Shown one piece after another: positions 7,526 to 46,230 of a DNA stretch of 64,000 nt. How positions within the stretch are numbered: position 1 is the first letter of the stretch; the number at the start of each line of letters is the position of its first letter. This stretch comes from Bacteroidales bacterium. GTDB lineage: Bacteria > Bacteroidota > Bacteroidia > Bacteroidales > ML635J-15. Under the pieces are notes generated by a model. It was not told the origin of the DNA, ran no database searches, and saw only the letters and a list, made by a program, of their open reading frames with translations. Where the stretch lies: NCBI GenBank assembly GCA_003249955.1, contig QKHS01000014.1, positions 62,001-126,000 on the forward strand. Reading direction: 5' to 3'. A program made the position numbers and the translations under genes.

Positions 7526-10500
7526 TGATACGATCAAAACTATACATTACTTTCTTAATCATATTTTCCGCATTTACTTTTTCGGGATTTGCTCAAAGCT
7601 TTACTCTGAGTAAAGATTTTACAGCTCCCACACCTTTGCAATACAATAATGGCGATAATTATTTTTTCGTAAATATACTGCCGGGAAATAGTCCTGCAAT
7701 AGCTAATCCGGAATGCACGCGTTTGTATAATCCTAATAATAGTTTTTTTGCATTTACAGCAAATCAGGAAGGAGGCTTTTCTGTTGAACTTGAGTTTCGT
7801 GACAGTGTAGCCGGAGGAATAAGTCTTTTTGTTAATAACGAAGGAACATATACAGAAATTTATTGCACAGACTTCAATACAGATTTGCTTGTTCTAAAAC
7901 ACATTGATGAAGTACTTTCAGGTAAAGATATTATTGCACAATTATGGTTTCCTGCTACAGTCGGAGAATTTTCGTCACATCTTAAAATAAAAGAGTTTGC
8001 AGGTTATGGCAATCTGAAAGTCCCTGCTATTGACATAAGCACATACACGCCGGAACAACTTGTACAGGAAATCCTTATTTCAGGATGTGTTGAAGCACAA
8101 AATGTTACATTTCAGGGAAGTCTCGAAAGCATAGGATATTTTGAAAACGGAATTCCGGGGCTGAGTTTTGAAAACGGAATAATAATGAGTTCGGGCAGAG
8201 TAACAGATGCTGCAGGGCCAAATAATTCCGGGTCAACAGGTACCAATCTTCATAACCCCGGAGATAGCGATCTGTCAAGTATAGTTGGTACTCAAACCCA
8301 TGATGCCGCAGTACTTGAATTTGATTTTATCCCGGCCAGTAATACTGTCAGTTTTGAGTATGTCTTCGGCTCCGAAGAATATGAAGAATTTGTCGGGCAG
8401 GGTTTTAATGATGTCTTTGCATTTTTTGTCAGCGGAGGTCCGGAAGCCTATTCAAATGTTAATATTGCCAGAATTCCTGTAGTCGGAGTGCCTGTGAGTA
8501 TTAATAACGTCAATCAGACAGATAATTCTGCATACTACGTTAATAATGACGGAGGACTAGACATTCAGTTCGACGGGATGACGGTCACTTTAACTGCATT
8601 TTTAAATGTAACTCAGTGTGAAACTTACCACATGAAACTTGCTGTTTCTGATGTCGGAGACGGAATATATGACTCCGGCGTTTTCCTGAAAGCCGGAAGT
8701 TTCAACTCAGGAGCGAGTGTTGTGCTGCGTAATTACAATGCCTGGGGTCTTGTTAATACTGTCCACGAAGGTTGTACAAACGAAGTTGTTTTTGCGCGCT
8801 CCGATTTGTCCAACTTAAGTGATCCTATGCCGGTAGTTATTACTGTAGATGGTACCGCAATAAACGGGACAGATTATTCAACGATAAATACAGATTTCAC
8901 TATACCGGGCGGACAGGAGTCGATAAGTATAGATCTCGAAGCTTTTACAGACGGGATTCCTGAAGGAGCAGAAACAATTATTCTGACAGTCTTTAATGGC
9001 TGCCCGTGTAGCGTTCAGACAGCTTCAGATACAATCAGAGTTCTTGATGAAATTATTTTTACTCCAACTTTAATCAATAATGGCCCGGTTTGTCAGGGAG
9101 ATTCCGCACTGTTGAGTTTAAGCAACCTTCCGGTAACAGATACCATACGCATTGAATGGAGTAACGGGGTTACCGGGCCTTCACAGATATGGGTTCATCC
9201 TGTTGCGACAACAACTTATACCGCAAATATTTTTTATCCGTGCAGCAGTAAATCTGTATCAACAACTGTAACAGTAAATCCGGTTCCAAATGCTTCTGCA
9301 TCCAATGACGGCCCTTACTGTGTTGGCGATCCTATACATCTTTTCGGTACAGGAGGTGTTACATATCGCTGGAGAGGTCCAGACTCATTTTTAAGCTTAC
9401 AACAGAATCCGGTAATTAATAATTCTCAACCGGTAAACGGCGGTACATATCAGGTTACCGTTACAGGTGCAAATGGCTGTAAATCAATTACGTCAACATA
9501 TGTTGATGTAAATCCTTTACCGGATCTGGAATTAAATGCAAACACTCCTTTTTGCACAGGAGATCCGATTAGTTTCATTATTGATACTTTTCCCGATTAT
9601 TATTATTGGGGCCCTGATTCATGGAATTCTGTTGACAGTTTTCCGATAATAGGAAATGCTGCAGAAACACACGAAGGATGGTATTATGTAATTGTTACAG
9701 ACACAAATCTTTGCCGTGCAATAGATTCAGTTTTTATTGAAGTAAATCCGTCACCGGTTGCAAATGCATGGTCTAACTCGCCTGTTTGCGAAGGCACAAC
9801 AATATTACTTTATTCAGACGGAGGTCCGTCTTATTCATGGACAGGCCCGGCAGGGTTTACATCAACAGATCAGAATCCTTTTATTGCAGCAGCAACTCCT
9901 GCAAATTCAGGCAATTATACTGTCACGGTAAGGAATATCTATAACTGTACAGATTCCTACACTATAAGCTACACAGTAAACCCCACTCCTGATGCCGGAT
10001 TTACAAATCCCGGGCCTTTGTGTATTAATTCTTCTGATATTACACTCAGTCCTGTGAATTCCGGCGGGACCTGGAGCGGAACGGGAATAACGAATATTTT
10101 AACCGGAGTATTCAGCCCGTCAACTGCCGGAGCCGGGTCACATCTGGTTACATACAATCTGACACAAAACGGTTGTATCGGGTCACATTCCGAAACTATC
10201 ACAGTTGATGCAATGCCCGTTATTAATATTAATTCCGCAGGACCGTTCTGTATTTCAGATCTGGCAACTAATCTTACGACAACAAGTCCCGGAGGATTTT
10301 GGAGCGGAACCGGAATTACGGATGCTGTAAACGGGACATTTGACCCCGCTGTTGCAGGAGTTGGCACTCACATAATTACTTATTCTCTGGTAAACGGAGC
10401 ATGTAATGATTCTGACAACATTTCAGTAACAGTATATCCTCTTGTTGATGCAACAATTACTCCGTCAGGGCCGTTTTGCGAAACAGATGCTGCCGTTACC

Positions 10501-42535: not shown

Positions 42536-43657
42536 TTATTTCCTGATAACTTTCATTATTTTAAATGCAGAATCGGTAAAAATGATTTTTGAATTCCCGT
42601 TTCTCTCAATATGATAATAAGCCTGATTAAATATTTCAGCCAGATCATCAACGTTTGAAGCATTTACAAATCTTGCAAAATTGGAAGCAAACTCCTCTTC
42701 TGCCTTTGTCATATAAGTTATCTTTGTCTGTTTGTAATTATAAACAAAATTCTCTCTGATAAGAACAGAACAATAATTTAAAAAATTCTTCTGTTTCTCT
42801 CTGCCCGTTTTGGACATTTGATCTGCCCATTTTAAAGCTTCGTTAATTTTGCGGGAATATCCAAGTCTCATCAGGCTAACAAACTGAGCAAGATTAAACT
42901 TGTTTTCTTCACTCGCAGATATTTGTTCTTTGGCCTCAAGCATACTTCCGTTGCTGATATTGACAATGTCAATTGCTCTTTGTTCATCAATTCCGTATTT
43001 ATCAATAAGAGCATGCTTAAGGATATCTTCTTCTATTCCCAATATTTTTACCGGTTGGGTTCGTGACTTAATCGTCGGTAAAACATCTTCCCGGTTGTCG
43101 CTTACCAGTATAAAAACAGTATTCTGGGGCGGTTCTTCAAGAATTTTAAGCAATTTGTTGGCACACGAATTATTCATTTTTTCGGGCAGCCATATTATCA
43201 TAACCTTATAGTCCGATTCAAATGTCTTAAGATTAAGTTTCTTTATTATTTCTGCCGATTCGTCCGAGTAAATGCTTCCCTGCTTATTTTCACTTTCCAG
43301 TTTTACCATCCATTCGTTGTACGAAAAATACGGATCTTCCAGAACCATCTCACGCCATTGTGAAATATACGTATCGCTTACAGATTTTTTACCGCTTGTT
43401 GTAATTACCGGGAATACAAAATGAAGATCGGGGTGGATAAGCTTTTCATATTTTTTACAGGATGGGCACTCTCCGCAACTATCGGTTTCTTTTTTGTTTT
43501 CGCAGGATAAGAACTGAGCAAAAGCAAGTGCAAGTGCAAGCTTTCCTGTGCCGGGAATGCCATAAAACAAATAAGAATGGCTAAGACGGTTATTATAATA
43601 ACTCTGTCTCAGTTTTTCTTTTATTTCAATTTGTCCTGTAACTTTTTCAAATTTCAT
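42536..43657 (-). CDS. holB: DNA polymerase III delta' subunit
   Basis: The 373-residue clamp-loader subunit has the AAA+ core with Tyr-Gly-Ile-Pro-Gly-Thr-Gly-Lys at about residues 33-40 (a Walker A-like loop). It also has a zinc-binding Cys group (Cys-Glu-Asn...Cys-Gly-Glu-Cys-Pro-Ser-Cys) and Leu-Lys-Ile-Leu-Glu-Glu-Pro-Pro before sensor 1. The C-terminal region matches delta' collar helices. It loads the sliding clamp at the replication fork. The intact Walker A Lys is unlike E. coli delta' but common elsewhere. First gene of holB-ricT-gldH-trmB-ATL, with a TAAATTTG box upstream. Confidence 0.92.
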   Translation of the reverse strand: MKFEKVTGQIEIKEKLRQSYYNNRLSHSYLFYGIPGTGKLALALAFAQFLSCENKKETDSCGECPSCKKYEKLIHPDLHFVFPVITTSGKKSVSDTYISQWREMVLEDPYFSYNEWMVKLESENKQGSIYSDESAEIIKKLNLKTFESDYKVMIIWLPEKMNNSCANKLLKILEEPPQNTVFILVSDNREDVLPTIKSRTQPVKILGIEEDILKHALIDKYGIDEQRAIDIVNISNGSMLEAKEQISASEENKFNLAQFVSLMRLGYSRKINEALKWADQMSKTGREKQKNFLNYCSVLIRENFVYNYKQTKITYMTKAEEEFASNFARFVNASNVDDLAEIFNQAYYHIERNGNSKIIFTDSAFKIMKVIRK

Positions 43658-43842: not shown

Positions 43843-46230
43843 ATGAATACCTTAGATAATTTCAATTTTGAAGGAAAGAGAGTATTGCTCAGAGTCGATT
43901 TCAATATTCCGATAACAAGCGACACCAATTCTTCGTTTGACGACACCAGGATTAAAATGGCATTGCCTACGATTCATAAGATTTTATCCGAAAAAGGATC
44001 TATTATCCTGATTACACATTGGGGACGCCCGAAAGGAGAGTATGTTGAATCACGGTCCCTTAAGCATATATTGCCTGTAATCGAAAAAATTATCGGAAAG
44101 CAAATTATTTTTTGTGAAAATCCGCTGTCGGACGAAACGGCAAAAACAGCCGCTAATCTTAAACCCGGACAAATTATGTTGCTTGAAAATATAAGATTTT
44201 TTAAAGAAGAAATTGAGGCAGATGAAAAATTTGCACAAAAACTGGCGTCTTTGGGAGATTGTTATGTAAATGATGCCTTCGGAACTGCTCACAGAAATCA
44301 TGCATCAACTGTTACTCTGGCAAAATCTTTTCCTTACGATAAAATGTTTGGTTATGTGGTAGAAGGCGAAATGAAAAAGCTTGACAAACTTGTAAAAAAT
44401 GCCGAAGCTCCTTTTACTCTGATGTTGGGCGGCGACAAAGTGACAACAAAAATCGGTATAGTTGAAGCATTGTTACCCAAAATAGATAACCTTCTTATAG
44501 GTGGAGGAATTGCTTTCACTTTTGCAAAAGCATTGGGCTATCCTGTCGGAAATTCTCTTGTTGAAGAAAGTTGTATAGATGTGGCAAAAAGAATTCTTAA
44601 AAATGCTGAAAGCTTTAATGTGAAAGTCCATTTACCGGTTGACTGTTTAATTGCAGATCATAACGGAAACGATGCAAATATTGAACATTGTGAATTTACT
44701 GAAATTCCTGACGGGTGGAGAGCTCTTGATATAGGAATAAAAACCGTTGACATTTTTGCAGAGATAATTGAAGAATCCAAAACCCTGTTGTGGGATGGTC
44801 CTCTTGGCGTTTATGAGTTACCACATTTCTCTTACGGGACATTAAAACTTGCCTTATCGGTTGCCCGTGCTACTGACAAAGGATTATATTCAGTTGTAGG
44901 TGGCGGAGATACAATAGCAGCCCTTAACAAATACAGCCTTGCGCATAAGATCTCATACATAAGTTCTGCCGGAGGAGCTCTGCTGGAATATATCGAGAAG
45001 AAAACCCTTCCGGCAATCAAAGCAATCAAGCAATCATTCAGCGTTGATGATTATAACTTTTATGGTAAAAGAGTTCTCATCAGAGTTGACTTTAACGTTC
45101 CTCTTGATAAAGATTATAATATTGTTGACCATACGAGAATTATAACAGCAATGCCAACCTGCAGAAAAATAATAGCAGACGGAGGTTCAATTATTCTGAT
45201 GACACATCTTGGAAGACCCAAGGGCGGTTACGAAGAAAAATATTCAATAAAACATATTGTCCCGTATTTGTCAAAAATATTGGAAACAAATGTAAAATTT
45301 GCTCCTGATTGTGTTGGCGAAGAAGCTCAGAAAATGGCAAAGGAACTTAAGCCGCGGGAAGTTATGATTCTTGAGAATCTCAGATTTAATCCGCTGGAAG
45401 AAAAGAATGACGAAGAGTTTGCCCGCAAGCTTGCAAATATGGGAGATGTTTATATAATGAATGCTTTCGGAACAGCACACCGGGCCCATGCATCAACATA
45501 TATGGTTGCAAAATTCTTCCCCGAGGATAAAATGCTTGGATACCTTGTAGAAAGTGAGATAAACAATATCAACAGAGTATTATATAAAGGAGAAAAACCA
45601 TTTACTGCAATAGTCGGAGGATCTAAGGTATCAACTAAAATTGATATTATCCGTGCTTTGATGGAAAGAGTTGATAATCTTATTATCGGAGGAGGGATCG
45701 CCTTTACATTTATTAAAGCAATGGGAGGAAATATCGGAGACTCACTGGTAGAGGAAGATTATATTGAGGTAGCCAGAGAAATTCTGGAGCAGGCCATGAA
45801 AACAGATGTAAAACTTTACTTGCCTGTTGATTGTATTATTGCAGATAAATTTGATAATAATGCAAAAATAAAACACTGCAAAATAAACGAAATTCCTAAA
45901 GGCTGGAGAGGGCTGGATATAGGTGTAAAAACTGCCGAAACATTCTCGAAGGTTATAGAGAAATCAAATACCCTTTTATGGAACGGCCCTATGGGAGTTT
46001 TCGAAATGGATCATTTTTGCAACGGGACAATAAAAATAGCTTTGTCTGTATCCAGATCTACAGATTTCGGAGCTTTTTCACTTGTAGGCGGAGGTGATAG
46101 TATTGCGGCACTAAATAAATATGGGCTTGCACATAAAATAAGCTATGTCTCAACTGCAGGCGGAGCTTTACTTGAATATATTGAGGGTAAAGAATTACCA
46201 AGTTTAAAGGCAATAAGGACTAAAATATAA
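43843..46230 (+). CDS. pgk: Tandem fused phosphoglycerate kinase (two full PGK copies in one chain)
   Basis: The 795-residue chain is two head-to-tail phosphoglycerate kinases, residues 1-397 and 398-795, each about the length of a normal PGK. Both have Arg-Val-Asp-Phe-Asn, Thr-Arg-Ile (Arg36, Arg432), Gly-Arg-Pro-Lys-Gly, Leu-Glu-Asn-(Ile/Leu)-Arg-Phe, Ala-Phe-Gly-Thr-Ala-His-Arg, and Gly-Gly-Gly-Asp near the end. Lys199 and Lys595 correspond to the ATP-phosphate Lys. Copy 2 has canonical motifs (Gly-Gly-Ser-Lys-Val-Ser, Asn-Gly-Pro-Met-Gly-Val-Phe-Glu). Copy 1 is more divergent (His-Trp-Gly-Arg, Gly-Gly-Asp-Lys-Val-Thr, Asp-Gly-Pro-Leu-Gly-Val-Tyr-Glu). PGK interconverts 1,3-bisphosphoglycerate plus ADP with 3-phosphoglycerate plus ATP. 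The gene is monocistronic; no other glycolytic gene is near. Confidence 0.95.
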   Translation: MNTLDNFNFEGKRVLLRVDFNIPITSDTNSSFDDTRIKMALPTIHKILSEKGSIILITHWGRPKGEYVESRSLKHILPVIEKIIGKQIIFCENPLSDETAKTAANLKPGQIMLLENIRFFKEEIEADEKFAQKLASLGDCYVNDAFGTAHRNHASTVTLAKSFPYDKMFGYVVEGEMKKLDKLVKNAEAPFTLMLGGDKVTTKIGIVEALLPKIDNLLIGGGIAFTFAKALGYPVGNSLVEESCIDVAKRILKNAESFNVKVHLPVDCLIADHNGNDANIEHCEFTEIPDGWRALDIGIKTVDIFAEIIEESKTLLWDGPLGVYELPHFSYGTLKLALSVARATDKGLYSVVGGGDTIAALNKYSLAHKISYISSAGGALLEYIEKKTLPAIKAIKQSFSVDDYNFYGKRVLIRVDFNVPLDKDYNIVDHTRIITAMPTCRKIIADGGSIILMTHLGRPKGGYEEKYSIKHIVPYLSKILETNVKFAPDCVGEEAQKMAKELKPREVMILENLRFNPLEEKNDEEFARKLANMGDVYIMNAFGTAHRAHASTYMVAKFFPEDKMLGYLVESEINNINRVLYKGEKPFTAIVGGSKVSTKIDIIRALMERVDNLIIGGGIAFTFIKAMGGNIGDSLVEEDYIEVAREILEQAMKTDVKLYLPVDCIIADKFDNNAKIKHCKINEIPKGWRGLDIGVKTAETFSKVIEKSNTLLWNGPMGVFEMDHFCNGTIKIALSVSRSTDFGAFSLVGGGDSIAALNKYGLAHKISYVSTAGGALLEYIEGKELPSLKAIRTKI

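Follow-up and report, generated by a model that had tools for sequence, protein, structure and literature searches.

A conserved head-to-tail fusion of two phosphoglycerate kinases in Bacteroidales, located in the window at the native pgk position

The gene described here encodes a real and conserved double phosphoglycerate kinase (PGK), located at the native position of pgk and constituting a variant of a known enzyme. It resides in a window, i.e. the whole stretch of DNA analysed, of 64,000 nucleotides from a Bacteroidales bacterium, and its two complete PGK units are referred to below as half A and half B. The fusion is old and conserved rather than recent. Regarding its origin and function, we consider it rather probable that a single in-place duplication of the native pgk gene, followed by fusion, gave rise to a covalent dimer of PGK, in which half B would be the main catalyst while half A diverges into a partner.

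Architecture and occurrence of the fused gene

Reading of the open frames in the window revealed a single ATG-started frame of 795 codons that comprises two complete PGK domains (Table 1). The Pfam family PF00162 matches the encoded protein twice, each time over its full length (positions 1-379) and with scores of 438 and 503 bits, while the Pfam search detected no other family, and hence no TPI domain, in the fusion protein. One frame with two full-length matches thus bears out the sequence-only reading, which had described two complete PGKs fused head to tail. Around position 45030, where that reading had considered two separate ORFs, the frame is continuous, and the junction K396-QSF-S400 (45028-45042) is devoid of a stop codon. 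The halves share 57% identity in a half-to-half alignment, and both likely fold as PGK. A promoter and terminator scan of the fusion locus yielded nothing informative.

Table 1. Features of the fused gene and its divergent neighbour in the window
Feature	Position	Strand	Remark
PGK-PGK fusion gene (795 aa and stop codon)	43843..46230	+	Single frame with two full-length PF00162 matches
PGK half A, residues 1-396	43843..45030	+	Core substrate residues kept
Junction Gln-Ser-Phe, three residues	45031..45039	+	Length same in 38/39 distinct fusions
PGK half B, residues 400-795	45040..46227	+	The less diverged of the two halves
holB-like gene (DNA polymerase III delta' type), divergent neighbour	42536..43657	-	Marks native pgk position

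The NCBIfam model of the bifunctional PGK/TPI, NF010569, assigns 945 bits to the whole window protein and thereby exceeds its cut-off of 883. This is because the scores of two PGK domains add up: the single halves reach 439 and 512 bits, each of them covering model positions 4-393 of 645. Used alone, the model would therefore misname the window protein as PGK/TPI.

A survey of named genomes, a set which overlaps with the unnamed one, yielded relatives at 135 loci, and the following counts cover the best 80 of these 135. A whole two-PGK fusion frame was present in 27, two more frames leave the contig within the last residues (L119, L122), an in-frame stop interrupts the gene in two others (L101, L103), and four fusions, L124-L127, are truncated where the contig ends, one assembly accounting for two of these four. 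All 35 fusion loci are titled as metagenome-assembled genomes, and 34 of them bear Bacteroidota-type names, namely Bacteroidales, Bacteroidetes, Bacteroidota, Marinilabiliales and one Acetofilamentum, the last of which we take to be a name of this type. L115 is titled Delongbacteria, and its contig appears to be that of G030, a member of the window's family. In this family (31 genomes, G000-G030), the fusion was found in 15 genomes, a shortened form (see below) in 13, and neither in G003, G008 and G010. Among the 15 fusion genomes, one has the fusion on two contigs, and two carry an in-frame stop in the gene, i.e. G011 (L040:7829-10222, TGA) and G025 (L054:4383-6815, TAA), which reflects either an error or an early split.

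At the level of the order, 295 Bacteroidales genomes of at least 90% completeness were surveyed on the basis of the matches listed (about 150 rows), among which the full fusion is present in 11 genomes and the shortened form in four. A genome with a single match at E < 1e-137 was assigned an ordinary PGK by this E value, genomes with two to three or weak matches were searched again, and eight were read separately (G000, G005, G013, G015, G022, G042, G056, G057). The full fusions are spread over families f1, f34, f52, f79 and f91, and a sixth family, f10, holds one cut copy (G039). Counting the cut copies as well, 39 distinct fusion proteins were compared at the junction, which comprises three residues in 38 of them and six in the other; this constant length speaks against an assembly accident. 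In view of the many loci, the 57% identity of the halves and the constant junction, an assembly artefact or a recent duplication is rejected, in accordance with the sequence-only reading.

Genomic position and descent of the fusion

The fused gene of the window is arranged back to back with the holB-like gene, which is followed by PSP1-, GldH- and TrmB-like genes, names which we assigned by eye from the sequences. The same order exists beside a single pgk in L133 (Marinifilum) as well as in L132, L135, L136, L138 and L144. Divergent holB adjoins 23 of the 36 distinct full fusions, while no recognisable holB was seen beside the other 13, although at least 1.3 kb of upstream DNA was examined. 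Since the position next to holB is common to the fusion and to single pgk, duplication and fusion of the native gene in place, with later moves in some lineages, fits best.

None of the 13 loci of the shortened gene (L034-L038, L041, L042, L044-L046, L050-L052) has holB beside it, the gene having moved away from holB, and in 12 of them frames situated about 5 kb upstream encode a single protein of very large size (2400 aa in L052). An unfused parallel to the fusion is found in family f27, where two complete pgk genes stand in tandem about 260 bases apart (L214:7028-8236 and 8493-9767).

A first tree comprised 134 PGK domains, taken from 152 full-length rows and without the PGK-C rows introduced below. 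In it, all complete fusion halves form one clade with an SH-aLRT support of 99, nested among single PGKs, and this grouping was seen again in a second tree of 65 chosen rows. Alignment of the halves and their placement in a tree, which the sequence-only reading had proposed in order to date the duplication, thus point to one old rather than recent fusion. Independent fusions in each family are not needed, as the halves constitute one clade with one junction. The A and B halves are interleaved in the 134-domain tree, which would suggest gene conversion between them; since the test does not reject a topology in which the A halves are all monophyletic (p-AU 0.233, 65 chosen rows), such conversion is not claimed. 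The B halves of the shortened proteins fall outside the other halves in two trees, and placing them with the B halves of the family raised the likelihood by 11 units (65 chosen rows).

Residue states and divergence of the two halves

The halves were compared at 62 sites common to at least 64 of 65 single PGKs, using 1VPE numbering and counting within the two main domains. The residue tables leave aside the distant single PGKs L154-L173, the odd divergent L063_S, and the fragments L026_A, L062_B, L054_B, L054_S, L091_C, L017_B, L199_S and L123_C. The core residues of PGK, which we take to be the RVDFN Asp/Asn, Arg35, His58, Arg61, Arg117, His149-Arg150, Lys196, Lys200, Glu323 and GGGD, are kept in both halves of the window protein; a loss of catalytic residues from both halves, which the sequence-only reading had considered as contrary evidence, is hence not seen. 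Window A departs from the near-invariant sites at seven of 62 (A190L, S198T, M220I, N316D, F322Y, T373S, G374A) and window B at four (N142M, D143N, M220I, G374A). Viewed by motif, window A keeps the ND of VNDAFG and changes the N of WNGP to D and TGGG to SAGG, while window B changes VND to IMN and STGGG to STAGG. Neither window half therefore has both VNDAFG and TGGG intact, motifs which are conserved in single PGKs and stand outside the definition of the family.

Accordingly, the earlier description of the second copy as canonical holds for the core residues and fails at VND, M220I and STGGG, all at sites common to at least 64 of 65 single PGKs. Among the changes next to active motifs that had been noted for the first copy, Tyr indeed occupies an invariant site, while the site of Asp198 is variable in the 65 single PGKs (Ala in 53, Ser in 10, Lys in two), as is that of Leu. 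The changes of WNGP and TGGG in the first copy, both at near-invariant sites, had not been mentioned.

Of 93 fusion halves, 89 carry M220I and 92 carry G374A, irrespective of whether they are A or B, and both substitutions therefore arose before the duplication or together with it. The Asp of VNDAFG is found in all 65 single PGKs and in all 54 PGK-C rows, but 35 of the 36 proteins with two complete halves lack it in one half or in both. In 19 of these 36, both halves carry Asn or Glu at this site, or Asn in both, and loss of the Asp is therefore tolerated. All 13 shortened proteins keep the Asn-Asp of VNDAFG in their B half, which has no intact partner. Replacement of the same Asp in human PGK1 (D164V) is reported to lower kcat to about 5% and to raise the Km for 3-phosphoglycerate about sixfold (excerpt of PMC3279470). 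By analogy, the change in the fusion halves hints at altered kinetics, with Asn being milder than Val, and is no proof thereof.

Divergence was compared in 12 genomes of the window's family and 23 of other families, chosen among those with two complete halves. Half A is more diverged than half B in all 66 genome pairs of the window's family, the mean identity amounting to 0.697 for A and 0.803 for B, and dN/dS, for which three pairs only were usable, is 0.092 for A and 0.028 for B. In the other families, A is the more diverged half in 106 of 253 pairs, so that no such bias exists. Moreover, near-invariant C-domain sites are kept to 0.812 in A and to 0.936 in B within the window's family.

The shortened form of about 650 aa, in which A is reduced to its C-terminal domain ahead of a complete PGK, occurs in 13 of the 31 family genomes, all of the same genus. 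The derivation of its first part from A is supported by a value of 100 on a branch of 2.47 (six of the 13 are in the tree) and by shared residues. Within this domain, GGGD is altered to DGDD (DGND in one), Lys200 is replaced by Gln and STGGG is shortened, and the domain is under purifying selection, with a dN/dS of 0.079 over 78 pairs as compared to 0.011 for B of the same proteins. Low dN/dS as calculated here indicates constraint, the nature of which it leaves unspecified. A dead A domain under such tight constraint probably has a function outside catalysis, and this is the main reason why a structural or regulatory role of A is preferred over pure dosage; half A in the window's family is probably becoming such a structural or regulatory partner.

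Dosage only, by which the fusion would double the PGK sites per transcript and half A of the window's family would drift under relaxed selection without assuming a new role, is rather unlikely. It is in line with the equal divergence of A and B in other families and with the greater loss of near-invariant C-domain sites from A in the window's family, but it predicts neither the constant junction length nor the dN/dS of the shortened A, a domain without key catalytic residues.

Quite improbable is a division of labour, in which A and B would differ in nucleotide (ADP/GDP) or in direction (glycolysis/gluconeogenesis) and thus provide two isozymes per protein. Changes of window A in the nucleotide domain, N316D, F322Y and T373S among them, would suit this alternative, and so would the changes of window B in the substrate-side VND motif, considering the effect of human D164V (excerpt of PMC3279470). 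On the other hand, M220I and G374A are shared by nearly all halves of both types, and D143N also occurs in seven of 15 A halves of the window's family.

Lastly, it is scarcely conceivable that A contributes its C domain and B its N domain to one working unit over the short linker, in the style of a circular permutant: window A keeps the N-side ND motif and B more of the nucleotide side, and 1fw8, which we take to be a circularly permuted yeast PGK, matches with two stretches in the Protein Data Bank, but N(A) should evolve slowly if N(A) and C(B) formed the main enzyme, and with an identity of 0.659 it is the most diverged domain (C(A) 0.731, N(B) 0.752, C(B) 0.829), a pattern that speaks against domain swapping.

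The preferred reading, i.e. a covalent dimer with an increasingly unequal pair of halves, builds on the observed architecture, single clade, genomic position, residue states and divergence. The fusion would catalyse the ordinary reaction, 1,3-bisphosphoglycerate + ADP <-> 3-phosphoglycerate + ATP, and its linker of three residues leads from the C-terminus of A into the N-terminus of B. Both halves are probably active in the other fusion families, where they diverge at an equal rate. In the window's family, B would serve as the main catalyst, whereas A, with its core catalytic residues kept, would drift toward a partner that stabilises or modulates B; the activity of each half, the contact between the halves and the modulation are what we infer. 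A second acceptor or scaffolding, roles that the sequence-only reading had also raised, would be conceivable. In the 13 genomes of one genus, A would already have become a dead C-terminal domain ahead of a complete PGK. Several points stand against this explanation, namely the very long branch of the dead A (2.47), the native position, which is not universal, the stops in G011 and G025, and the three of 31 family genomes devoid of the fusion.

The divergent paralogue PGK-C and comparison with known systems

A search of the window's own genome (99.8% complete, 101 contigs), which has GAPDH and enolase, detected no ordinary pgk elsewhere. The only other PGK-family match is a divergent gene with an altered active site, for which we coined the name PGK-C (C18:140348-141649, 434 aa, 279 bits; L004:10349-11650:-). 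This third PGK-family gene of the genome is located outside the window, about 14 kb past its end and 32 kb from the fusion, and was absent from the sequence-only reading. Because no other genomic PGK match exists besides this paralogue, the window fusion most likely carries glycolysis, as had been surmised for the case that no separate pgk is present, while it is possible that PGK-C shares the PGK load in this organism.

In all 54 PGK-C rows, which include one gene twice, once as a fragment, His149-Arg150 is replaced by Trp-Gln (Cys-Gln in one), and Glu323, the VFE glutamate, is absent from all 53 rows that reach this site. Judged by these residues, PGK-C is not an ordinary PGK; for the most part, it retains Lys196, Lys200 and the two loops GGGD and TGGG. 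A tree with 32 PGK-C rows unites them in one clade (support 100, stem 1.1). In 10 distinct loci (L105, L109-L113, L115, L116, L117, L055; L115 is the same contig as L059), the start of PGK-C is at most 0.4 kb downstream of the fusion. Elsewhere, e.g. in L108 and L123, the distance is greater, and in L216 PGK-C comes directly after a single pgk. The neighbours of PGK-C share no pathway beyond the fusion itself and a gene in nine loci which, read by eye, we take to be phosphomannomutase-like. In G027, a further very divergent PGK of 407 aa and odd composition is encoded on a 4.5-kb contig (L063:1645-2865) and is possibly contamination.

Among the matches listed, PGK-C occurs in 39 of the 295 Bacteroidales genomes; of the 15 genomes that have the fusion in its full or its shortened form, 14 carry PGK-C (Fisher p 7e-13, uncorrected for relatedness). 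An ordinary PGK match is absent, again among the matches listed, from nine of 39 PGK-C carriers versus four of 256 non-carriers (p 2.5e-6, uncorrected for relatedness). GAPDH was found in eight of the nine PGK-C-only genomes, and enolase likewise in eight; in family f69, all four sampled genomes have PGK-C only, with GAPDH in four and enolase in three. Hence, PGK-C may perform the PGK step in some genomes. Of the four PGK-less genomes, the three that were searched for GAPDH and enolase (G103, G190, G275) also possess both, and an absent PGK match may therefore be an assembly gap. In a phylum sample of 296 genomes, the own genome alone was found at E 1e-60 among the matches listed.

A more far-reaching reading is put forward tentatively. 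A central glycolytic enzyme might be seen here at successive stages of turning into a regulated pseudoenzyme pair, from equal fused PGKs via the unequal pair of the window to a dead half-PGK clamp on a complete PGK, and PGK-C, a third PGK with coordinated alterations, might represent a new kind of PGK or a partner subunit; this takes into account that PGK-C is a neighbour gene in several lineages and the sole PGK homologue found in others. Fused PGKs whose join is kept to the residue, and one half of which is seemingly disarmed in one branch, constitute a natural series that bears on the effect of a second PGK unit on the first and on the origin of a pseudoenzyme inside an essential enzyme. 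In addition, the series flags a likely misnaming as PGK/TPI in databases and draws attention to PGK-C as the sole PGK homologue found in some genomes with GAPDH and enolase.

Among known systems, bacterial PGK (PF00162; chains 1vpe and 1php, presumably the PGKs of Thermotoga and of a Geobacillus-type Bacillus, respectively) is matched by both window halves over its full length and in its core substrate and catalytic residues, but it has one domain set per chain, whereas the fusion has two, with M220I and G374A in nearly all halves. A PGK-PGK fusion was not found among the papers listed in searches of the open-licence literature. We know of no PGK-PGK enzyme, and protein databases may hold such an architecture unremarked.

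The PGK-TPI fusion of Thermotoga (excerpt of PMC7729029) is also a covalent PGK fusion, and its model NF010569 fits the window protein above the cut-off; it contains TPI, however, while the window protein is devoid of TPI and owes its score to two PGK stretches. Catalytically dead PGK paralogues with a predicted loss of active-site residues are reported from kinetoplastids and a diplonemid, and in this respect resemble the shortened A, but they are eukaryotic and the excerpted text does not describe them as a PGK-PGK chain (PMC7729029). Usually, PGK is a monomer; dimers and tetramers are reported from some archaea and other organisms (excerpt of PMC7729029), and a homodimer from Corynebacterium glutamicum (excerpt of PMC3996851). 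Such homodimers, as far as these excerpts describe them, likewise hold two PGK units per particle but consist of identical separate chains, whereas the pair of the window, known here from its sequence, is covalent and unequal.
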